From contig CAJNDT010000002.1 in assembly GCA_905221615.1 (NCBI GenBank), positions 2,625,361 to 2,689,360 on the forward strand: 64,000 bases of DNA, read 5' to 3'. The stretch comes from Symbiodinium sp. CCMP2592 (taxonomy: Eukaryota > Sar > Dinophyceae > Suessiales > Symbiodiniaceae). Each line of letters begins with the position of its first letter. Within the stretch, counting starts at the first letter, position 1. The notes below the pieces were generated by a model. The model was not told where the DNA came from and did not search any database. It saw only the letters and a list, made by a program, of their open reading frames with translations. This document shows, in pieces, positions 2,545 through 35,594 of the stretch. The translations under genes and the position numbers were made by a program.

Positions 2545-12444
<9,900 letters not shown>

Positions 12445-23342: not shown

Positions 23343-23408
23343 TACTTGGAGGGTCGGGGGACTTAGTAAGTAGGTAGTAAGTAGACTTATCAGTACCCTA
23401 AGAGGTTA
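23343..23408. repeat. MITE family A, left part, split by DTE-1
   Basis: It reads TACTTGGAGGGTCGGGGGAC and continues as in the intact copies at 62074 and 63754 (in reverse) up to AGTACCCTAA, then GAGGTTA. The remaining part resumes at 35376 beyond the large element. Confidence 0.8.
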
Positions 23409-23436
23409 CTTGAAGGGGCGGGGGTGTTAGTAATTG
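23409..23436. repeat. DTE-1 left terminal inverted repeat
   Basis: About 28 bp, CTTGAAGGGGCGGGG then GTGTTAGTAATTG. It matches the right end with one shifted G/T and one mismatch. Confidence 0.85.
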
Positions 23437-23590
23437 TATATGCAGGTTGTTAATTGTTTGGCACAGTTAGCAAATGACTTATATGAGATGTGTAAGTGTA
23501 GTTATTGAACTTAGCTATGTTGAAGTTAACTTGGTTAGCTAAGTGTATTTATATGAAAAAGATAAGTGAGCTAAGTGATCTAAGTTGCAT
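23430..23590. promoter_or_regulatory. DTE-1 left subterminal TAAGT-rich zone
   Basis: Short words such as GTAAGTGTAG, TTAGCTAAGTG and GAGCTAAGTG recur every 10-25 bp. The mirror zone is at 35085-35340. Such subterminal repeats are typical transposase-binding sites; binding here is inference. Confidence 0.45.
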
Positions 23591-23649
23591 GAAGCATGCT
23601 GCTCAGAGACGCAATGCAGGGCTTTAAAGCTCGCATGCAGTTCTCTTTT

Positions 23650-25659
23650 TTACACCTGCGGGACTGCGACAATGGCAGCATTGCCCGAAATGCTGTAAGG
23701 GCATGTGGCCCGGATCAGTCGGGTTTGCACGAGGCCACAATCGTCGGAGACTTCATACATACAGCCATGGACATGTGTCCAGAAGGTAATGTGCGACCAT
23801 ACAACTTTCTCGCACATTACATGATAAGCCACTTTGCCTACGGCAGTGACCCCATCCAGATCCATCAAGGCCAAGTCGCCGACAGCCACGGTGAAGTTTC
23901 CTCCATGCACTGCCTGCCTGGCTGTGAAGACTTCACCCTGGACCCGGATCGTGTTGTGTATCTCTGTTTGCAATCTGGCAGGAGCTGGTCTCACAGGGTC
24001 GACCAAGCGAACTCCTTGGCCTGGGAGGTATACACACTCTGCCAGACTTTCCATGTGACCATGGAGTACATCTTGTAGGATGCTCCTCTCAAAGGTTCTG
24101 CTTGTATCCAAAATTTCATTCGAAATTTTTTTGATGATTTCATGTTTTCTTTCGTGCACAAAGCAGCTGAGGAGGACCTGATGCTTGGCCAGTTGCAGCG
24201 CCAAATGGCCTGCCAAGTGACACTTTGGCACCCACCACTCATCTCCATACCGACTTTTCGCCAGATCGAGATGCCTTTTGATGAGCTGCTGCAACTGCAG
24301 GGGGGTAAATGCTGAAGGTTTGGCATTGATCGCTTGCAAAGCATCAATCACCTTGCACAAAGCCAACCAAACCTCGCAAGAGTCCCGGATATCTCTGCTG
24401 CAATTTGGCAGCACAAAGACTAGCACATAGAGTCGCAGCAGCTGCATAAAGTTCAGAGCCTCGCTGGCTCCACACTTCAAGGTTTCGCTTGGCTTTCGCT
24501 TCTGCAAGATATCCTTTGCAGCAGCACCTCGCAAACGAGAAGGCCAGGTAAAACCATTTGCGAAGCGATCAATGTCATTGTGCTTCCAGCCATGGTTGTG
24601 AAGCTCTCCAAGAAAAAACCCCGTCAGAACATTGAAGATGCCATTGACCAAATAGATATGGAAGTAATCGAACATCACACACTCGATGACCGGAGGCCCG
24701 TATGCTGCATGTGCCAGCAATCCATCCTCTTTGAAATTGAACCCCATTGCTGTTTGGAGTTGCAGGAATCTGTCTTTGTTGAGGACCGTCTCTTGCCTTC
24801 GCAAGAAGTCCATGGTGTCTCGTATAGACTCGGGTGTGTGCATCCGAAAGCAACTCATGTCGGTTTCCAGGCCGGACACCATATTGCCCCGACTCCTTTC
24901 AGCAATGCTGCTTTTGTGGTCCACGGCGTTTTGGCATTGAACACAGAATATGAGCCCACTGGCTCCTTTATTGAAAAGGGTAGCCTTAATTGCAGCTTCG
25001 TCGGATATGATGATCTTCAAGTCGGCAAAGAGCATACGTGCTTGTCCAGGGCACTGCAACACAAGACCTTTTCTGAAGTCAGGTCTCTCAAAGAACAAGG
25101 CTGCTAGCTGCCTGAAGAGCACAGTCATGCCGCCGAGATCTGCGACCAGAGAGCTGCGAATGGCACAGAGAGTGAACCAGCAATTTTCGCAACCCATTGC
25201 ATGCTGTCCCAAAGGGAGCAGGCTCCAATATACAGCCTGGACCTTTCTCCGGTTGGAGTGCTTGAGTTGGTTGCCCGGAGCCAGCTCGTCGGAATACCAC
25301 ACCAATCCCCATGGTTGAAGAATGCTGGGGGGTGTGGCATCCATGGCCCTCTCCAGGAACTCGCCAAATGGTCGACATCGCTCTGTCGCCCAGGCAAGCA
25401 TTGCAGCTGGGTTCAAGACAGGAAATTCAAACTCCACACCAGTTTCGGCAACACACTTGAAGTCGCATAGGATCTCGCCATAAGCAGTTTGGTAGCTCCG
25501 AGTCTTCTCATCCCGGGCCCGCTTCAGTGTTCGGCGACTCGTCCCAGATGGCAACTCGGGCAGCTCTTTGAGTTCCTGCAAGACCTGACTGAGACCTCGC
25601 TGGGATACATATGATTTCCTTCCCAAGCAGGAGAGCGAGGAGCTCCCGGCGGAAGCCAT
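23650..25659 (-). CDS. Transposase-like protein of DTE-1 (DDE-type candidate)
   Basis: A 669-residue single-exon frame starting at an ATG in CCCATGG. I recall this family as very abundant in dinoflagellates. In order it shows: YSDELAPGNQLKHSNRRK at about 121-138 (first acidic candidate); ISDEAAIKATLFNKGASG then CVQC (about 217-240, acidic residue plus C-x2-C); FDYFHIYLVNG at about 328-338 (D-x2-H); WWVPKCHLAGHLALQL at about 475-490; and an acidic/basic stretch FVHERKHEIIKK at about 500-511. This succession matches DDE transposases with a zinc-knuckle insertion (CMC/Plavaka-like). The protein at 42968-45398 keeps the same order. It is the last gene of the - strand cluster and ends only 241 bp from the element's left tip. 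The frame is intact, so the copy could be active. Which acidic residues are catalytic is inference. Confidence 0.7.
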   Translation of the reverse strand: MASAGSSSLSCLGRKSYVSQRGLSQVLQELKELPELPSGTSRRTLKRARDEKTRSYQTAYGEILCDFKCVAETGVEFEFPVLNPAAMLAWATERCRPFGEFLERAMDATPPSILQPWGLVWYSDELAPGNQLKHSNRRKVQAVYWSLLPLGQHAMGCENCWFTLCAIRSSLVADLGGMTVLFRQLAALFFERPDFRKGLVLQCPGQARMLFADLKIIISDEAAIKATLFNKGASGLIFCVQCQNAVDHKSSIAERSRGNMVSGLETDMSCFRMHTPESIRDTMDFLRRQETVLNKDRFLQLQTAMGFNFKEDGLLAHAAYGPPVIECVMFDYFHIYLVNGIFNVLTGFFLGELHNHGWKHNDIDRFANGFTWPSRLRGAAAKDILQKRKPSETLKCGASEALNFMQLLRLYVLVFVLPNCSRDIRDSCEVWLALCKVIDALQAINAKPSAFTPLQLQQLIKRHLDLAKSRYGDEWWVPKCHLAGHLALQLAKHQVLLSCFVHERKHEIIKKISNEILDTSRTFERSILQDVLHGHMESLAECVYLPGQGVRLVDPVRPAPARLQTEIHNTIRVQGEVFTARQAVHGGNFTVAVGDLALMDLDGVTAVGKVAYHVMCEKVVWSHITFWTHVHGCMYEVSDDCGLVQTRLIRATCPYSISGNAAIVAVPQV

Positions 25660-25699
25660 GGGGTCTGCTGGCGAGCTCTTGGCCCTGCCGAGCGACCCA

Positions 25700-26450
25700 C
25701 TACTTTGACTGCAGATTCATACATATATATATATGTATATCTGTATAAAAGGTATACTATATATAGGAAAAGTGGATGGGAGCATGCAGGCACTGTGTAC
25801 GTACCTTATATATCTATATATATATATATATATATACAGAGATATGTTTTGTTTACATGTATATATGCATGCTCTTTGTTCCTGCAGGTTTCCAAGCATA
25901 TTGCTGCAACGGTGCAACCCCACTGCGAGCAGTCCGGGAAACTCCAGTGCAAGGCCAAGACAACCTTTAACCATAAACCCGAAACTAAATATTTGATATA
26001 TATATATATATGTATACACAGAAACCCGAAAGCTATAGATATATAGCATCCGAGTATTGATTTGTACACATATATATACATGTATATACAGTTATATATA
26101 TAGTATATACCACACCAAACCTAACCTAACACCAAACGTGATCCTGAGACACATCTTAATAAATCGCAAAGCCATATATAATATATACATGTACAACTCG
26201 AAAGCTTCAACATAGCTCTCGAAGAAGGGTCCACATTCGCACCCTCCTAAAAGGACACCCCTGTATAATATATGTGTGTGTATATATATATATATCAATA
26301 TATATTCAACCCATATATATATATATATATATAAAGTATATATAGGCTCCTATATATATATATATACATCCCATATGTAAAGTATATCTATATATATATA
26401 TGTATATAACACATATATAATATGCCACGAAACAAAAACCCGGATCGTGC
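25700..26450. repeat. (TA)n-rich spacer between DTE-1 genes
   Basis: A spacer with many short TATATA and TGTATATA tracts (near 25727, 25820, 26000, 26280, 26320, 26390). It separates the transposase-like gene from its - strand neighbour. No frame of interest was found; 26450-26761 also holds no clear gene. Confidence 0.7.
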
Positions 26451-26761
26451 AGGCATCCTGCACCACCGCTTTTGACACCTGCCAGGATCGCTTCGGTCTT
26501 TCCCTCCGTGGCAAGCGATGCTCCCAACATTATACCTCCCGAGGTACAATGCCTTTAATGTACACACAGCCTTTGTGAAAGATGAATAATAAGGTGCATG
26601 CTTCGTGGAGGCTCGCGAACAAAACTTTGCTGATGCTGGAAGACACCAAAACACGTCAACATGCATATAGACTTAAGATGTATACACTCTGCCTGTAGCC
26701 TCCAAACTCTCACCCTATATAGGACTCCAGCTGTGCATGCTTTCAGCAGCTGTTGATGCAA

Positions 26762-28192
26762 TCACGGGCCAAAGCACGACGGTGTGCAGCCGGGCTTTTC
26801 CCGGCACTTGGCACACCCATTGGGTCGCAGCTTGATGCGAGCCGACAAAGTCATGCATCGGACCTCTTCTCGAGTGAACTTCTGCAAAGCCTTCTGGACC
26901 TTCTTCGGCTGCGACTTCGCCTTCGCCTTGCAAGCAGCCTTGGCCTTCGCCTTGGGCTGCGACTTTGCTTTGGGCTGGGACTTCATGGCCGTGCACTTGG
27001 CCTTCGCCTTAGCCTTGGCCTTGGCTTTACCCTTGGCCTTGGCTGCAGCCTTGGGCTTCTTATTTGCCTTGTGCTTCGCCTCGTTTTCCTTGGCCTCGGC
27101 CTCGACGGTGCTGTCGAACCCTTTGTTGTCGCCCTTCCAAGCTTGAAGCATTTCATCTGCATGTTGTGCAGCACTGACAGGATCCTTGCTGGCCAGCACT
27201 CCCTGTTGCTCGGCCTGCTTTGTTCCGCTGCCCTGTGCCGGTTCATTGGTAACTGTAGGAAGCTGCAAGGCCTGCTGTTGAGCAGGCGAGGAGGCCATCG
27301 TCCCAGACGAGGCGGCAGCAGCTGGGTCGCCGAAGATTTTCAACCCAGGCAATCCATCGTTCTTCTTCGCCAATTGCTGCTGCTGGTTGAACATGTTAGC
27401 TGCCATGCTGCCCCAGAACTGCATCATACCCTGCATGGTGTGGGGCATGTGCATTGCCGGGCCTGCTGCTGGACCACCCAGCACCATGGCAGTGTTGCTC
27501 TTGTGGAAAGAGAGGCTTTTGTTACTGCCACGAAGAGCATCACGGGCCAGCACCATTGTTCCAGGCAGCTCACCTCCCAAGGCATCTGCGAAGCGATCTC
27601 GGGTGTGTGGTGGAAGATCCTCAGGCCGAGTGTACTTGGCGACGAACTCGCCACAGGAAGCATCTTTGAGCATGGTCTTCACCTTCTTCTTGAGGCACAC
27701 GACAGCCGAATGGAACTCGTCGGGGCTCTGCAAGCCAGTATTGTTGCAACTCTGCAGGGTCTTGATGATGTGTCCCACAGACTGTTCTGATGGCCAGAAC
27801 ATCTCCAGTCGAGCCATTATCTGAGCAGTGTGAGTCAGCCTCATGACGAGAGTGTCGTCGCTGGACAAAACTCTCCGGTCCTCGGCGCCCAAGAAACCCC
27901 AGAAGTTGAGAATTTCCTGGTTCTTCTTCTTGGCCTTGGCATTTGCTGGAGTGCTGCCTGCCAAGGTCTGGGAGACGGCTGCACCCAGGGCCTGCTTCTG
28001 CTCGTGTGACCAAAGGCCCTGCTGCACCAAGCTGCAGATCTCTGCACCCTCCTCGACTGTGATGTGGCTTTGACGAATCGTTCTGATGGAGACCTCGCTC
28101 TGAGCAGCCAAGAGAGAAGTCCATTGATCTCCCATGATGGGCTGCTGGGTCTGGAGGAGCTGGTTCAGCTGTCGAAGGAAAGCAGCTGCCAT
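26762..28192 (-). CDS. DTE-1 accessory protein, Gln/Ala-rich with KAKAK tail and cysteine knuckle
   Basis: 476 residues from ATG 28192, in GCCATGG. Upstream codons stay open to 28369, but this start has the better context and opens MAAAFLRQLNQLLQ. The N-terminal third is helical (SLVQQGLWSHEQKQALGAAV). A middle region has FWGFLGAEDRRVLSS. Gln/Met-rich low complexity follows. A long basic tract of repeated KAKAKAK and SQPKAK blocks covers about residues 370-440. The end is a cysteine cluster of spacing C-x2-C-x4-C-x3-C (CAKCREKPGCTPSC). The basic tract and knuckle suggest nucleic-acid binding in the nucleus. No catalytic domain is recognised. I recall similar proteins accompanying dinoflagellate repeats, unverified. 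It lies 1.1 kb upstream of the transposase-like gene in the same orientation. Confidence 0.65.
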   Translation of the reverse strand: MAAAFLRQLNQLLQTQQPIMGDQWTSLLAAQSEVSIRTIRQSHITVEEGAEICSLVQQGLWSHEQKQALGAAVSQTLAGSTPANAKAKKKNQEILNFWGFLGAEDRRVLSSDDTLVMRLTHTAQIMARLEMFWPSEQSVGHIIKTLQSCNNTGLQSPDEFHSAVVCLKKKVKTMLKDASCGEFVAKYTRPEDLPPHTRDRFADALGGELPGTMVLARDALRGSNKSLSFHKSNTAMVLGGPAAGPAMHMPHTMQGMMQFWGSMAANMFNQQQQLAKKNDGLPGLKIFGDPAAAASSGTMASSPAQQQALQLPTVTNEPAQGSGTKQAEQQGVLASKDPVSAAQHADEMLQAWKGDNKGFDSTVEAEAKENEAKHKANKKPKAAAKAKGKAKAKAKAKAKCTAMKSQPKAKSQPKAKAKAACKAKAKSQPKKVQKALQKFTREEVRCMTLSARIKLRPNGCAKCREKPGCTPSCFGP

Positions 28193-28489
28193 GGCACGGC
28201 CGGATATAGCACAGATGCTCTGCACAAAGCGAGCTGCTGTAGCCGTGCTTGCGAACACCTGTCTATAGAGCAGCAGCGGGCAGCAGGCAGATGATGGAGT
28301 GCATGTGCTTTGCAACACACAAGCATGCAGCCTGCCACTGGAGACGTCTTTCACATTGCATGCAGTCACAGACCGGAAGACTTCTTCACCAAAGGGGTCT
28401 CGGTTTCGCAGGCAGGGCTCTGAGCTCGCCAGCAGAACCCGTAGACACCCTCAAGAGCACAGCCATGTTACTACAGTATACCGACACCT

Positions 28490-28770
28490 GCAGGCATGCA
28501 AGTGTGTAATATATGTGTATGTAAGTTCAGAGATTCAGTCCATTTCATATACACATAAATATATATACACATATATGTATGTATATATATATATGTGTAT
28601 ATAAGAATATATGAACGATATGTTTTGGTATCTGTATATGTATATATATATATATATATATACATATCGTGTATATATACATATATATATATATGTATGT
28701 GTGTGTGGGGTAGATACACATCTCACATGTAATAGGTATATATGCAGAGTGTGTAAAACTGTGTATGTAT
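28490..28770. repeat. (TA)n/(TATG)n-rich spacer upstream of the accessory gene
   Basis: Alternating TA and TATGTA runs with no coding frame. A pyrimidine and (CA)n tract follows at 28820-28970. Confidence 0.75.
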
Positions 28771-29242
28771 ATGTACTTCAGTGAAATCCATGCAGCCACT
28801 TTGCTATGTAGCAGTCTCTTCCTTCACAGCCAACCCCCCCTCCCTCCAACCCCCTTGTACCTTCCCTCGCTCACTCGTTCTCTGTCTCTGTCTCTGTCTC
28901 CCTCTCTCCCTCTCCTCGTTTGTTGCTCTTTGTCGCAGACACAACACACACACACACACACACACACATGTTGCCATGGGGGTCTGTGTGCCTCATGGGC
29001 CTGACCAAACGGTGGAGACTCGGAGGATGGGCGGTTTTTCTTCAAACTGGCCCATATGGTCTGTGGTCGTGAAACAGACACAGGCCCCGGTAGCCCAAAG
29101 CCTCGGCTGTACAGGGGGATATAGCCCCCTCGCCGATTCGTCTTCTGCAGCCCAAAGCTATTTCTTACCTATATAGTTTCCCTACTTATTGCCTAGAGAG
29201 GCCAGAGGACAGGGAACCACGAGGGCACTGGGAAAGCAACCC

Positions 29243-29427
29243 TTTATGCATGCATAAGGGGCCTGACCCCAAAAACCCGAAACCTTTATGTATGCATAAA
29301 GGTTTGTGCCCTTGGCCCTGCCGAGGTTTATGCATGCATAAGCCCCGCCCTAGGAAACTGAACCCAGCCATATGCATGCATAAAGTTCCGGTCTATTTTG
29401 CTTAAGGGGCTTTATGCATGCATAAAC
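29243..29427. promoter_or_regulatory. Five TTATGCATGCATAA palindromes phased at exactly 42 bp
   Basis: Near-identical palindromes with the core TATGCATGCATA are centred at 29250.5, 29292.5, 29334.5, 29376.5 and 29418.5. The second has one mismatch (TTTATGTATGCATAAA). The 26-30 bp between them are not conserved, so this is not a simple minisatellite. A 42-bp period is four turns of B-DNA and would put all five sites on one face. They lie upstream of the accessory gene starting at 28192 and just downstream of the gene at 29497-31340. A binding array (regulator, transposase or replication protein) is inferred. Confidence 0.75.
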
Positions 29428-29496
29428 CCCGGCCATCGGGACTGGTAGCCCTGACCCTCTGTGCCCGAAGCGGCGAGCCGGAAAATGCCCCCAATT

Positions 29497-31340
29497 TCAG
29501 GTCCTTCGCTGCTCACAGCATGCAGGACCTTGGGATCCAAGCAAGCAGGCCAGGCCGTATATAGAGCAACACAGGCGGTCTGAGCTTCCAACTATTAGCG
29601 GCTCCCCTGGTCTCCAGGCCACAAACCAGGGGTGCCAGGCAGGAACCATGGGATCCTGCCAGGCATTATAAGTTTCAACACCATCAGGACAGAAAGGCTC
29701 CTCGGTCACAGCACAGGCCTCAACGGACTCGCTGGGCTTGCAGGTTTATCGTCTCGGCCATGACCCCCATGGTGTGGAGGGAGGCCCGCAAGTCCTGCAT
29801 GTCGGGGCTCGCGGTGTCTTCAGCTTTGCTGTTCTCGTGGATTGGCAAGCAGCAAGGGTCCTCCATGTGGCTTCTCGATTCCTCGAGTGCCCCTTGGGCC
29901 TTTGTGGCCCGGACACCTTGGCCACCACGTGTCCGGGCCCTCTTTCTCCCCATGCCCGCCGCCCACTCCTGCAACGGGGCCAGCAGCAAGCAGAGGCAAA
30001 CCTGAAGCACCATCACAAAGACCAAGGCAAGCCTGGCCGTGCTCGTCGATGAAAGCGACCTGCCCAAGAAGACTGCATCAGTATAGAGACAAGTGCAGTC
30101 GTGCATGCCAGACCCAAAGAAAAAGCCTTGGGCTTCACGTAGTGCCCTTTGCCCTTCGAGTCCGGCATCAGATCTCCTCAATCCAGACAACAAACACTTG
30201 CAAAGAAGCCTGGCTCCAGACAACCACAAGAAGTCCTTCGTCCCAGTTCGCGGGCAAAGCCTGCCACAGATGCAGCATGCATTATATACACAGTGAACAG
30301 CTATATGCTTGCTGTCCTTGGTCTTTGGCACGGGGTCCATGTACCTCTTCGGAGGCGGCTCCTGCAATCAAACAAGAAGTACATTATATCGCCTTACGAA
30401 GAAATTCCGCCTTCGGCTCCGCTGGGCGCTGCTTCTTGCTGTTCGCCGGCTTCAGCACAACTGGCGAGCAGGCACACTAGATATGTACGATGGAGCAGCA
30501 TGCAAAAGCAGTTGCAATGACATGTCGGGCATGCTGGGCTCGGCCGGTGGATCCTCGACGTCCACCTCCACGGTGTCCGAATCCTCGTGGCCTGCATGCT
30601 GCAACTACATGGATATATACATATGGACTCCTTGAGCTTCAAATACCCGGCCTGCCAGGCATATCACAGAAGCTTTAAAGTCTCCCACATCGTCGTTCCA
30701 GTAGAGCCACCCGCCTTAGGCGACAACGGTTTTCTTCTACCCAAATTAAGAAAACACCTAGGACCAGGGCTGGCAGGCACGTTCATGGCCTGCACGTCTG
30801 GGTGCTTGAAGTACATGTCACCTGCACGAGTGCACGAGCCAATTCACTTGATTCCATGCAGACACTATATATAACTGCAGCCTCCAACAGACAGGATCTT
30901 CCACCCCATCTTGGCCGACCAGGAAATCGTGGTGCCTGCAAAACAATTGCAACCAAATGAAAGGCTATATATCCATATCACTTGCATGGGGGCACCGGCC
31001 TTCATCATTCTTGTATTTCCCCCTCCCGGACTTCGAGAAGTCCGTGTGGAGCTGCAGCCGCTCCACCACATCGGCCTGTTATTTTTGGGGCGGTGGCATG
31101 TGTGTGCATGTGGTTGTACAGGGGCCCCACCTCCACAGCGGAGGGAAGGCTTCGCGACAAGAAGCTAAAGGACATCATCACTCCCAAAAACCACGGCAGC
31201 TTCACAAGCCAAAAGAGCTGAAAAAGCAAGCATGGCGCAGACGTGGCACCCACTGCAACAAGGGCAAATGTGCATGCAGAAACACGACACCAATGTTCAG
31301 AGAGCTTCGGTCGATGTCGTCTGTCCAAAGACAGCATCGG
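29497..31340 (-). CDS. DTE-1 split gene of unknown function
   Basis: Not recognised. Several exon-like frames on the - strand, in different phases, suggest a gene with short exons. In order of transcription: around 31090-30985 (DVVERLQLHTDFSKSGRGKY); 30945-30885 (HHDFLVGQDGVEDPVCW); 30815-30780 (DMYFKHPDVQAMNV); 30585-30500 (HEDSDTVEVDVEDPPAEPSM); 30440-30385 (LKPANSKKQRPAEPKAEFL); 30360-30300 (EPPPKRYMDPVPKTKDSK); 30045-29985 (VAFIDEHGQACLGLCDGAS); 29980-29760 (SRSHMEDPCCLPIHE); and 29720-29560 (DGVETYNAWQDPMVPAWHP). The frame changes between the last two at about 29740, a short intron or a lesion. The product would be moderately charged with several Pro/Lys stretches. Exon borders and the true start are unknown. 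Confidence 0.4.
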
Positions 31341-31505
31341 GCAATCAAAGTGTGGAGCCGTTGTGAGTTTGCATCATTGACAGTAATATATACATATGTA
31401 TATATATATATATATTTTTTTTTCACGGTGTGTTGATACATACTATACATCAAGTATACACATTGCATGGATGCACGGAAGATACATGCGAGACTGCATG
31501 CAGAA

Positions 31506-32204
31506 TCACTTCTTGGCCTTGGCCGGGGAGCCAACGATGCCCTTCGGGGCCGGGTTCTTGGCCGGGGAGCCATTCAGGATGCTCTTCAGGGCCGTGCTCT
31601 TAGCTTTTGCCTTGGCCTTGCCCTTGGCTTTCGCCGCTGGAACCTTGGCCTCCTTGTCGGAATCCTCGCTGGCATCGGTCTTGTCCCGGGAGCTGTGCCT
31701 TCTTTTCTTCCGATCGACAGGCATTTGTTGATTCGCCTGCTCCATGAGCCAATTGAAATTTTCGGAGAGCATCTCCACGAAGATGCTCCCGGTAGACAGG
31801 CCCTCGCTGAGGATCGACAGCTGAAAGCCATCGATCGTAATGTCGACGATCGCCGGCAACAGGTGCACGTGCTTGGCCAAAGCCTTCACCTTATCCTTCT
31901 TGCTTTTCTTCTTCTTGGGCTCGTCGTCGGCTTCATCGTCCCTCAGGGCCTCTTCCAGCAGCTTGTCGCAAGCAGCCTGCCTCTTCTCGATCAAATCGTC
32001 AAAGAGCTTTATGTTCAGCGACCCCGATGATTCCCCTTGGCCGGACCGCAAGTCCAGTCGTTTGCCTGTGATCATTTTCACAAGCTGCGGGGACCATTTC
32101 GAGACAGCACAGAAGACCCGGTCGTCGACACTCTTTTGGGTTGGCATCCAGCTTCGGTCACCCAGCACGACAACCTGTTTCGTCACAATCTCGAAGCAAG
32201 CCAT
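31506..32204 (-). CDS. DTE-1 accessory protein with SPAK/KAK basic tail
   Basis: 232 residues from ATG 32204, the first start with a sensible N-terminus (MACFEIVTKQVVVLGDRSW); the frame is open further upstream to 32570. The N-terminal half is mixed alpha/beta. A basic patch DDEPKKKKSKKDK is at about residues 108-120. The C-terminus holds AAKAKGKAKAKAK and spaced SPAK motifs, like histone H1 or dinoflagellate histone-like tails. Not recognised as an enzyme; chromatin or DNA binding is inferred from the tail. It lies 450 bp downstream of the neighbouring gene, same strand. Confidence 0.6.
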   Translation of the reverse strand: MACFEIVTKQVVVLGDRSWMPTQKSVDDRVFCAVSKWSPQLVKMITGKRLDLRSGQGESSGSLNIKLFDDLIEKRQAACDKLLEEALRDDEADDEPKKKKSKKDKVKALAKHVHLLPAIVDITIDGFQLSILSEGLSTGSIFVEMLSENFNWLMEQANQQMPVDRKKRRHSSRDKTDASEDSDKEAKVPAAKAKGKAKAKAKSTALKSILNGSPAKNPAPKGIVGSPAKAKK

Positions 32205-32653
32205 GATGATGCGATGCACGGGGGAAATGGTTTGATGCGAGGCTGGAGCTGTTTTCTGCCGGCGAGCACACATGCCCTGCCTAGGCGAAAACAACACATC
32301 CATGCAAGCAGCAACTTCAACAATGCACCTGCACTTCATCACGGGCGATGCATCCTGCACTTGCATACAGAAGCATAAAGCTGCACTGCATTTCCATCCG
32401 CAAAGCACAAGCTCGCACACCTGAGGGATCCTCGCACCATGCAGCTGCACAGAACACTCTATGAATGGTCGCTCTATAAAAACCATGCCCCTCGGATGCT
32501 TGCAACCTGCAACAATTGTACATATCCTTCTCCGCAATGCATTAGAAACAGACCTCACATATACATACAATGGAATCTTTCAGATACTGCAAGCTCAAGC
32601 AATGGCTGCTGCTGGTATAGCAGCACACTGGACTGCATACGGATGCCGAAACA

Positions 32654-34831
32654 TCACTTCTTCTGAGCCTTCTTGCTGGAGCCACCTGAGCTCGCCGATG
32701 CTCTTTTCTGCGCCGAAGTCTTGTGGTCGTCCTCCACTTCCTCCAAGGGAGCCACCTGCACCGTTTTAGATCTGAAAGCCACAATGGGGCTGCCTTCCGG
32801 GATCTTCTTGGTGTTCTTAAAAACCGGAATCTTGATGCTCTTCTCTGTTCCCGCAATCCAAACAAGCTTCACATTGCAATCCTCTTCCTGATGGCTGTGC
32901 TGCACCAACCAAAAGGGAACTACCACATGTTTGCAAGTGTCGTCGTCGTTATCTTTGGGTAGAATGTTGGCTCCGGAAAGCCAAAACTTGCGGTCGTCTC
33001 CTTGCCAGTCCGTCTGCACCTCAAACATGGTGTTGCCTTGGCCCTGGGATTTCTGCACGACCTTGTTGGTCATGGGCACCATGCAGAGTTTCTTGATGTC
33101 CGAGTTGGCAAGCAACATCCTCGAAGGCTTCAGCTGCAATTTCAGGTGCTCCGATCCACACTCCATGGACTGGTGAAGCTTGTAGAGCTCAAGCTGAATC
33201 TTCGATGCAAGAATGCTGGCATCAAAATCCACATGGTGCTGGTACTGGTCCAAGCTGTCTAGCATTGTGGGCTGCACACGAGGAACAAACACGACCCAAT
33301 CTCCAGCCAGGATAACATTGAGATCCACCTTGGCCGTCTTTCCCGAAGCCATCTTCACAAAGACCATCTGACCTTTCACTTCTGAAAGAACTCCCTCGAT
33401 TTTGTCAACCTTGCGACGGATGTGTGCACCCATAGCGAAACCCTTGGAGGCCAATATCTTCTCAGGTTCCTTGATACTGCCGTCTTCAGCAAGCTCAAGC
33501 ATCACACCTGCAGCAGAAGGCTGGGAAGCAGTCGCTGCAGTTGCAGCTGGTTCACTTTGCTCAGACACCGACTCCCATGGCAAAGGGAGTGCAACACCGG
33601 TCAGGTTTCTTGCCACGAGCAAAAAATCGTGCCCAATCGCTTGGACTGTTTTGTACTTTTTCTCGTCCGGCACCTTGATGCCGAGGACGTGCGATGCTAT
33701 CGTCATATCCATAGTGGCCAGAGCTTGCACGACCCGCGAATCCGTCATGAAATCGCGAGCTCCATCCCTTAAGATGCCCCTGACCGTGAGGATCATGTTG
33801 TCAGCTTCCTTGACCTTGGGGAAGAGTTCTTTAGAAGTCATCTTCTTCACATCAGCAATGGTCACATTCTGCCTCAAGTATGCCTGCTTCATGAGTGCAT
33901 GGCGAAATGCTGCAACGGGATCTGACTGGTGCCCTCGGCAATCTTGCCCGAAAGCCTCCCACAGGACAGGCCCCAATTGCCGAGAAGAAGGGCAGTAAGC
34001 CCGCACAAAGGACTCCGTCTCCTGAAGGAAGCTCGCATCGGCACCCCCGGAAGCCTTCAGACAAAACGTAAACATGTGGGGTACGGAGGCATGGCAGCTT
34101 GGTTTGCTGGCCAATATCAACTTCTTCAGAGATGCAAAAGCCGGTGCTTGGCCAGTCTGAGTCTGCAAGCGGTAGTACGTGGAATGGATGCGACGGAGTA
34201 CTTGTAGCTCATGTTCTCCTCGTTGAAGCGATGTGTTGCCTGACCGGGATATCAAGCTGATCAGCTCTGGGAACTCTTCCGCCACGGAGGAGGAGATCAC
34301 GTCCCACGTCAGGCCTTGATCAGCTGCTTCGTGGAACGAAGCATCCCGAGCACGAAGAAGCTCCATGCTGAGCTTTCCACCCACACTCACGACCTCGTTG
34401 CCGTGGCTTGCACCTTGTTGAAAAAGTCGCAAAGCGCAATTGGTATGTGATCCGCAGATCGAAGTGATCTTGATCGCTTCCGGCTCAAGGCTTCCGAGAA
34501 GACCGTGGGCTGACTCGAACAGCTTCTTGTTCCACTGCCGGACCCAGTCTCCTTCGACTTCGACACCGACCGCATGCACACGTGTGGGGACATAGCCCAC
34601 ATCGACAATCGAGTCCACAAGATCACGAACGTCTTGTGGATTCACTCCGTACCCATCCCGGTTGCAGGGATGGATCCCCACAAGGCTCGCCTCCAACTTC
34701 ATGGAGGTCAAGAGATGCTTGGACTTCAAGTAGTTCAAGCAGTTCTCCACGATTCGGACAAGGCCGTCGCCATCCGAGGCTTCTCGAAGGAAAGCCTGCA
34801 GCCGCTCTCGCACATCCGACTGCAAAGGCAT
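32654..34831 (-). CDS. DTE-1 large accessory protein, unknown
   Basis: 725 residues, single exon. ATG 34831 (MPLQSDVRERLQAFL) is chosen over the open upstream extension to 34948, which reads as Cys-rich noise. Near residue 50 is VGIHPCNRDGYGVNPQDV, a turn that recalls ParB-like or Srx-like folds, although the resemblance is short. GSHTNCALRLFQQGASHG follows near 120. A late segment FAMGAHIRRKVDKIEG...GQMVFVK looks like a small KOW/SH3-type barrel. The tail is Ser/Lys-rich (ASSGGSSKKAQKK). It is the first gene of the - strand cluster. No catalytic motif is certain. I recall related proteins as dinoflagellate multi-copy genes, unverified. Confidence 0.65.
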   Translation of the reverse strand: MPLQSDVRERLQAFLREASDGDGLVRIVENCLNYLKSKHLLTSMKLEASLVGIHPCNRDGYGVNPQDVRDLVDSIVDVGYVPTRVHAVGVEVEGDWVRQWNKKLFESAHGLLGSLEPEAIKITSICGSHTNCALRLFQQGASHGNEVVSVGGKLSMELLRARDASFHEAADQGLTWDVISSSVAEEFPELISLISRSGNTSLQRGEHELQVLRRIHSTYYRLQTQTGQAPAFASLKKLILASKPSCHASVPHMFTFCLKASGGADASFLQETESFVRAYCPSSRQLGPVLWEAFGQDCRGHQSDPVAAFRHALMKQAYLRQNVTIADVKKMTSKELFPKVKEADNMILTVRGILRDGARDFMTDSRVVQALATMDMTIASHVLGIKVPDEKKYKTVQAIGHDFLLVARNLTGVALPLPWESVSEQSEPAATAATASQPSAAGVMLELAEDGSIKEPEKILASKGFAMGAHIRRKVDKIEGVLSEVKGQMVFVKMASGKTAKVDLNVILAGDWVVFVPRVQPTMLDSLDQYQHHVDFDASILASKIQLELYKLHQSMECGSEHLKLQLKPSRMLLANSDIKKLCMVPMTNKVVQKSQGQGNTMFEVQTDWQGDDRKFWLSGANILPKDNDDDTCKHVVVPFWLVQHSHQEEDCNVKLVWIAGTEKSIKIPVFKNTKKIPEGSPIVAFRSKTVQVAPLEEVEDDHKTSAQKRASASSGGSSKKAQKK

Positions 34832-35084
34832 GATGGGCAAGCGAGATGGAGGACGGAGCTGAAAATCTGCCTGCGAGCCAAGGGCCCTGCAATGGCGATA
34901 GATGGCTGCAATGCATGGAGTCATGCACAATACACAGAAGGCAAGCATGCGAGCATGTCCTCAACACATGCAATGCAGCAGCTTTCCATGCAATTTTCAA
35001 TTGCATCCTGAATACATGCGGCAGGAGATCTCCATGCAAGCTTCCGTTTGAAGCTTTGCAAATGCCAGGAAAACAACTTCAAAT

Positions 35085-35340
35085 AAACAACTTACACCAC
35101 TTACCTAAATCAGTTACACAAAGTTATCTAAGTTTGGCAAGTTGCTTAAAAGACTTGTTCTATCTTACTTATAAGTTCCACCCTGCTTTTGGCTAAGTGA
35201 CTCAACTGCTTGCTCCACTTCTTAATTCAAGCCTCGGACTTGCTAAGTTGTCCATACAACATAGTATATATACAGCACTTATAACTCATGTTAACGAACT
35301 TGTAACTCAACTTAACCTGATTGTCTAAATCTCCTAAACC
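35085..35340. promoter_or_regulatory. DTE-1 right subterminal ACTTA-rich zone
   Basis: Words AACTTACACC, CACTTACC, TATCTAAG, CTTACTTATAAG and AACTTAACC recur densely, mirroring the left zone at 23430-23590. Probably also the 5' flank of the first DTE-1 gene. Confidence 0.45.
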
Positions 35341-35347
35341 ATGTATT

Positions 35348-35375
35348 CGATTACTAAACACCCCGCCCCTTCAAG
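35348..35375. repeat. DTE-1 right terminal inverted repeat
   Basis: It reads CGATTACTAAACACCCC, then GCCCCTTCAAG: the inverted counterpart of 23409-23436. Confidence 0.85.
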
Positions 35376-35433
35376 TATGGTACTTCTAAGTCCCGAAAAT
35401 AACCAGTTACGAAGTCCCCCGACCCTCCAAGTA
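35376..35433. repeat. MITE family A, right part, split by DTE-1
   Basis: It starts TATGGTACTTCTAAGTCCC and ends GTCCCCCGACCCTCCAAGTA, as in intact copies of the family. Confidence 0.8.
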
Positions 35434-35468: not shown

Positions 35469-35594
35469 CTTGGAGGTTCATGGTAGTTGTAAGTGGGGCG
35501 ATAAGTAGGGTAACTATACTTATGACCGCTATTCAAGCAAGCAGTTATAGCTCCACTTGTAATTCCATCTTATAACTACACATGTACCTCCAAG
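35469..35594. repeat. MITE family E copy
   Basis: Arms CTTGGAGGTTCATGGTAGTT and, inverted, CTTGGAGGTACATGTGTAGTT. The ends resemble family A for eight bases and then differ. It shares AGGGTAACTATACTTAT with the region at 41209-41340. Confidence 0.6.

Follow-up and report, generated by a model that had tools for sequence, protein, structure and literature searches.

Within a 64,000-nucleotide stretch of the Symbiodinium sp. CCMP2592 genome (hereafter, the window; contig CAJNDT010000002.1, positions 2,625,361 to 2,689,360), we recognize an element, DTE-1, as a young autonomous DNA transposon of the cut-and-paste kind, with a RAG1/Transib-type transposase and probably still capable of moving, a reading to which we assign a probability of roughly 0.86. 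The original prediction had proposed leftward genes, the last of them transposase-like, between matching inverted ends, with TA on both sides and the parts of one family-A miniature inverted-repeat transposable element (MITE) beyond. The ends proved to be exact inverted copies of the same terminal inverted repeat (TIR), CTTGAAGGGGCGGGG, each directly abutted by TA (Table 1); the extent first proposed, 23343-35433, takes in the two MITE halves, the element proper being confined to 23409-35375. Its outermost letters, CTTGAAGG..CCTTCAAG, are of the CT..AG type and start with CTTG, and the terminal 260 bp on either side are dense in ACTTA/TAAGT (26.9 per kb, versus 0.4 in the body). With up to three mismatches allowed, CTTGAAGGGGCGGGG has 11 matches in the window against 2.05 expected, several of them being MITE ends.

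The insertion site can be read against intact copies of the interrupted MITE. When joined, the two flanking parts align over their full length with all 40 genomic copies scored (out of 1,060 first-look candidates), as well as with two full copies and one copy truncated at its right end in the window. Since they align with intact copies, they are the halves of a single MITE, interrupted at the TA within GGTTATGG, and not independent full MITEs; the intact copies display the undisturbed site, where this TA is present once (GGCTATGG replacing GGTTATGG in one copy). The left half had been described as about 15 bp short, and we measure a deficit of ~14 bp from the usual length. This shortness need not stem from the DTE-1 insertion, because four of the scored copies lack 12, 11, 6, and 1 bp, respectively, at that very position, the other 36 being 136 bp long. 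The intact MITE copies that were read are themselves flanked by TA, with CA in one window copy.

Across the 1,098-Mb assembly, there are 74 exact matches to the TIR, compared with 3 to a reversed control. By hand count, 58 of these matches form 29 convergent pairs and 16 are singles; the members of 28 pairs lie ~11.9-12.0 kb apart. The remaining pair (C26:43566-64163) is spaced 20.6 kb apart, which suggests an internal insertion of ~8.6 kb. Transposases of the DTE-1 type found by protein search fall within an exact TIR pair in 29 of 32 cases (hand comparison), and the other three (C402, C953, and C4896:1181338) adjoin one exact TIR, such that TIR-bounded gene copies and empty sites together support a single TIR element within a single MITE. 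Twenty of the 29 paired copies, a sample selected for having TIR pairs, were compared in full; they share 98.4-99.9% identity, and 18 of them carry equal dinucleotides on both sides (TA in 14, TG in 3, and TT in 1). The published hybrid assemblies, in the excerpted text of PMC8045281 (2021), where the strain is called S. tridacnidorum CCMP2592, contain mostly little-diverged long terminal repeat elements and DNA transposons that may remain active.

The last gene of the element, E, encodes a predicted transposase. The best fold match of its predicted model is RAG1, and in an alignment of 30 sequences, D118, D214, C233xxC236, H475xxxH479, and E497 are invariant wherever the residue is present; the fold suggests catalytic and zinc-binding roles for these positions. 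Transposase_21 (PF02992) matched none of the 30 members at an E-value of 1 or below, nor their majority sequence at 10 or below. With no Pfam transposase match, the clade placement of E therefore rests on fold and motifs: judged by the predicted structure, E is a DDE enzyme of the RAG1/Transib type and is consistent with the CMCT clade, although we could match its lineage to no named one. Distant relatives with 24-35% identity (P0027-P0039, in ENA, JGI, and lgn records) hint that the host range may exceed Symbiodinium.

Transposases of related families also occur in the assembly. Among 67 E matches scored out of 731 candidates—counts are thus lower bounds, and family assignments are our own—we distinguish F1, or DTE-1 itself (at least 32 copies, 98-100% identity), F2 (at least 13, mostly 62-65%), F3 (at least 13, 39-40%), and F4 (at least 8, 36-37%), in addition to one degenerate copy in C2068 outside all four. 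The downstream ends read in F2-F4, four in each, terminate in CCTTYAAG in 12 of 12; the next two letters are TA in 11 and CA in one F2 copy. Both TIRs with TA flanks were located in two F2 copies (14,027 and 14,031 bp). In one F3 copy, the TIRs are separated by 13,461 bp, and three open reading frames matching gene A lie at the far end, which is bordered by TA. Among the gene-A matches listed (62 scored of 552 candidates), all 32 F1 transposases have an upstream A on the same strand, 8.9-9.2 kb away in 30; A lies 17.8 kb upstream in C26, and the closest A to C4896:1181338, 24 kb off, belongs to a neighboring copy. In F2, A is paired with E in 8 of 13. As far as seen, the related families share the DTE-1 layout.

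The ends also connect DTE-1 to the MITE that it interrupts. A signature, CTTRRAGG..C..GG...TT, is common to the ends of F1-F4 and the MITE, save one base in the E end of F2; sites with at most one mismatch number 12 in the window against 0.32 expected. Three MITE copies contain 30-66 ACTTA/TAAGT per kb. Given these similar termini and subterminal repeats, the MITE is probably a non-autonomous member of the DTE-1 group and probably mobilized by it. Other MITE-like ends with the same signature but different sequence occur at window positions 35469, 39236, and 41450, one of them directly adjoining DTE-1.

Among known systems, EnSpm/CACTA elements belong to the CMCT clade, into which DTE-1 probably falls. 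CACTA elements classically have short subterminal repeats and encode a second DNA-binding protein, and the DxMH and ER..K..K motifs of that group presumably resemble those seen here. DTE-1 differs in that its ends are not CACTA (no CAC..GTG), its duplications are 2-bp TA, and it has no Transposase_21 match. Another such system is ESTA, an EnSpm-like group of rust fungi, and DTE-1 could be a new member of this named lineage in a dinoflagellate; we regard this as unlikely, yet a serious contender. As excerpted, PMC12730594 describes ESTA transposases that are RAG1-like by HHpred and structure-aware comparison, with TA target duplications and with motifs of the C(2)C and H(3-4)H types. DTE-1 shows the RAG1 likeness, the motifs, and the duplications (TA/TA in 14 of 20 copies). 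ESTA termini are not given in the excerpted description (PMC12730594). Some ESTA families carry TET/JBP genes and others do not, whereas the five DTE-1 proteins have no Pfam match at cut-off. Going by the same partial description, DTE-1 further departs from ESTA in its dinoflagellate host, its CTTGAAGG..CCTTCAAG ends, and its complement of genes A-B-C-D-E, which includes a BAH-like domain.

Far less probable is that DTE-1 belongs to the RAG-like (RAGL/ProtoRAG) or Transib elements, and thus descends directly from the kin of the RAG1-RAG2 ancestor. E matches RAG1 best in fold, with the overall core fold, DDE triad, CxxC, and paired histidines in common, and a complete RAGL is reported from the pelagophyte alga Aureococcus (PMC9435367, in excerpt). 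On the other hand, RAGL and Transib duplications are, in the excerpted PMC7204232, mostly 5 bp, and RAGL ends resemble the heptamer of recombination signal sequences and start with CAC, whereas DTE-1 makes 2-bp duplications and starts with CTTG. No RAG2-like protein or kelch model was found in Pfam scans of the five proteins, nor among the fold matches listed for A, which are of low confidence. A histone-reader domain is also part of the RAG system, as the PHD finger of RAG2; in DTE-1, the reader would be a BAH-like domain within the transposase itself. The same genus also harbors short TIR elements known as introners (PMC9860276, in excerpt); the example printed there shows duplications of 4 bp. 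A Tc1/mariner assignment was rejected, given the RAG1-type fold and lack of a Pfam transposase match; the TA duplication is all that is in common.

The near-identical copies might instead be assembly duplicates of a few real insertions, which we consider highly improbable. Short and long reads were combined in the published CCMP2592 assembly (PMC8045281, in excerpt), and some flanks recur: L019 and L023 have theirs in common, while the left flank of L039 equals that of L015 (267/267) and its right flank that of L017 (311/311), thus joining the two. The number of independent sites is therefore below 20. The other compared copies nevertheless have distinct flanks with their own dinucleotides, and copies diverge from one another by up to 1.6%. 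These three copies are on C780 and C2628; the flanks joined in L039 lie ~46 kb apart, and L039 could reflect inter-copy recombination or an assembly bridge. An integrated virus or polinton-like element, which a multi-gene, ~12-kb, TIR-bounded unit might bring to mind, is scarcely tenable, as none of the five reading frames matches a Pfam model at its cut-off, whether polymerase, capsid, or ATPase (a Peptidase_S49_N hit is sub-threshold at an E-value of 0.097), no viral fold matched E at 0.001 or below, and the one peptide pattern tried had no match in viral contigs.

Several observations weigh against a young autonomous transposon with a RAG1/Transib-type enzyme. Two of the 20 compared copies have unmatched flanks, namely L015 (TG/TA) and L025, which shows a 26-bp direct duplication. 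Protein-changing variation among the copies is not clearly suppressed (4 synonymous and 18 non-synonymous changes in gene A; n = 20), and with gap-near columns masked, variable sites amount to 1.0-1.6% in A, B, D, and E and 3.5% in C, compared with 0.8-2.7% in the rest. None of the 30 E members, nor their majority sequence, has a Pfam transposase match, and termini are CT..AG in all four families examined, versus the CA..TG usual in the CMCT clade. Among the matches listed, none of the 21 F3 and F4 transposases has a neighboring A, and an E partner is missing for 20 of the 60 A genes. The zero for F3 and F4 is not proof of absence, because one F3 copy has A by sequence. Finally, at C1152:23777-41391, an F4 transposase lies ~14 kb from an A homolog (36%) in the opposite orientation, which may represent two elements or some other arrangement. 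As an observation on its own, the duplication at L025 (C1112:599550-609549) looks as if the element had inserted at a widely staggered break.

We propose that E recognizes both the CTTGAAGG ends and the subterminal ACTTA repeats, perhaps with help from D, B, and A, and would pair both ends and excise DTE-1 in the manner of RAG1-fold enzymes. The excised element would then be joined to its target at TA, or rarely at TG or TT, by cuts staggered by 2 bp, and MITEs with similar ends and repeats could be mobilized by the group in the same way. The RAG2 PHD finger steers RAG to marked chromatin; the predicted C-terminal BAH domain of E may do likewise for DTE-1. A bolder reading, which we put forward tentatively and at less than even odds, is that DTE-1 represents an undescribed superfamily-level RAG1-fold lineage of at least three families in one dinoflagellate genome, with CTTRAAGG ends by TA and a multi-protein apparatus—an E-BAH transposase, a ParB-like DNA clamp in A, and basic DNA-packing proteins in B and D. 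Its RAG1-type enzyme would have gained a chromatin reader independently of RAG2, and the lineage would be a main source of the Symbiodinium MITE cloud.

Table 1. Features of DTE-1 and its flanks, in window coordinates
Feature	Coordinates	Strand	Remarks
Left part of split MITE	23345..23408	+	MITE's own TA flank at 23343-23344
Left TA target-site duplication	23407..23408	.	Window letters and copy comparison
DTE-1, complete element	23409..35375	- (every gene)	11,967 bp; TIR at each end; 20 copies of 11,910-12,014 bp
Left TIR	23409..23423	+	CTTGAAGGGGCGGGG; E-gene end; imperfect identity out to ~28 bp
Left terminal 260 bp	23409..23668	.	ACTTA/TAAGT-rich, 26.9 per kb
Gene E	23650..25659	-	Predicted RAG1-fold DDE transposase with C-terminal BAH-like domain; ~669 aa from first Met
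BAH-like domain of gene E	23665..24018	-	Predicted; residues 542-659 of 663-aa query
Gene D	26762..28192	-	~476 aa; N-terminal region conserved; basic tail rich in Lys/Ala; C-x2-C-x5-C-x3-C cluster at the end
Gene C (tentative)	29720..31102	-	Matches P0045, P0052, P0042
Gene B	31506..32204	-	~232 aa; basic tail; homologs after A in other families' gene models
Gene A	32654..34831	-	725 aa; weak structural hints of ParB-like N-terminal and PR/SET-like C-terminal folds
Right terminal 260 bp	35116..35375	.	ACTTA/TAAGT-rich, 26.9 per kb
Right TIR	35361..35375	-	A-gene end
Right TA target-site duplication	35376..35377	.	Window letters and copy comparison
Right part of split MITE	35378..35431	+	MITE's own TA flank at 35432-35433

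Of the five leftward genes first proposed, all keep their direction, and A, B, D, and E are backed by homology across families, while gene C is weak and uncertain: it comprises W-rich, weakly conserved pieces at 31102-30998 and 30936-30880 (one match reaching 30769), with one gene model placing further exons down to 29723. The Pfam scan of the five proteins returned no model at cut-off. Folds were predicted for A and E only, that of A with low confidence; gene A matches Symbiodinium sp. CCMP2592 proteins at up to 100% identity. A region homologous to gene D precedes E in P0005, P0006, and P0009, and some gene models fuse A with B homologs or D with E homologs. In two cases, an E record and an A record come from contigs of equal size (214,383 and 138,281). 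The cysteine cluster at the end of gene D (window 26765-26827) follows LRPNG and is partly kept in P0005; we take similar motifs to occur in other dinoflagellate proteins. Between genes C and D, TTTATGCATGCATAA recurs at window positions 29243, 29327, and 29411, with an exact 84-bp spacing. Elsewhere, positions 4001-6000 have strong GC skew (0.51) and low GC (0.40), unlike the remaining window.

Among the papers listed in searches of a literature that omits most subscription journals and Repbase, we found no dinoflagellate element of this kind, and an earlier description is possible. With DTE-1, a dinoflagellate has a transposase of predicted RAG1 fold that retains the key catalytic and zinc positions and exists in many open, near-identical copies, extending the known range of the enzyme class behind V(D)J recombination. 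The fused BAH-like domain, if true, would be a second route to a chromatin reader for such an enzyme. The DTE-1 group is also a candidate autonomous partner of a MITE family whose candidate sites number roughly a thousand, and its copies record recent movement in a coral-symbiont genus. Transformation of dinoflagellates is difficult, so a native transposon whose ends are known could, if active, be developed into a genetic tool.
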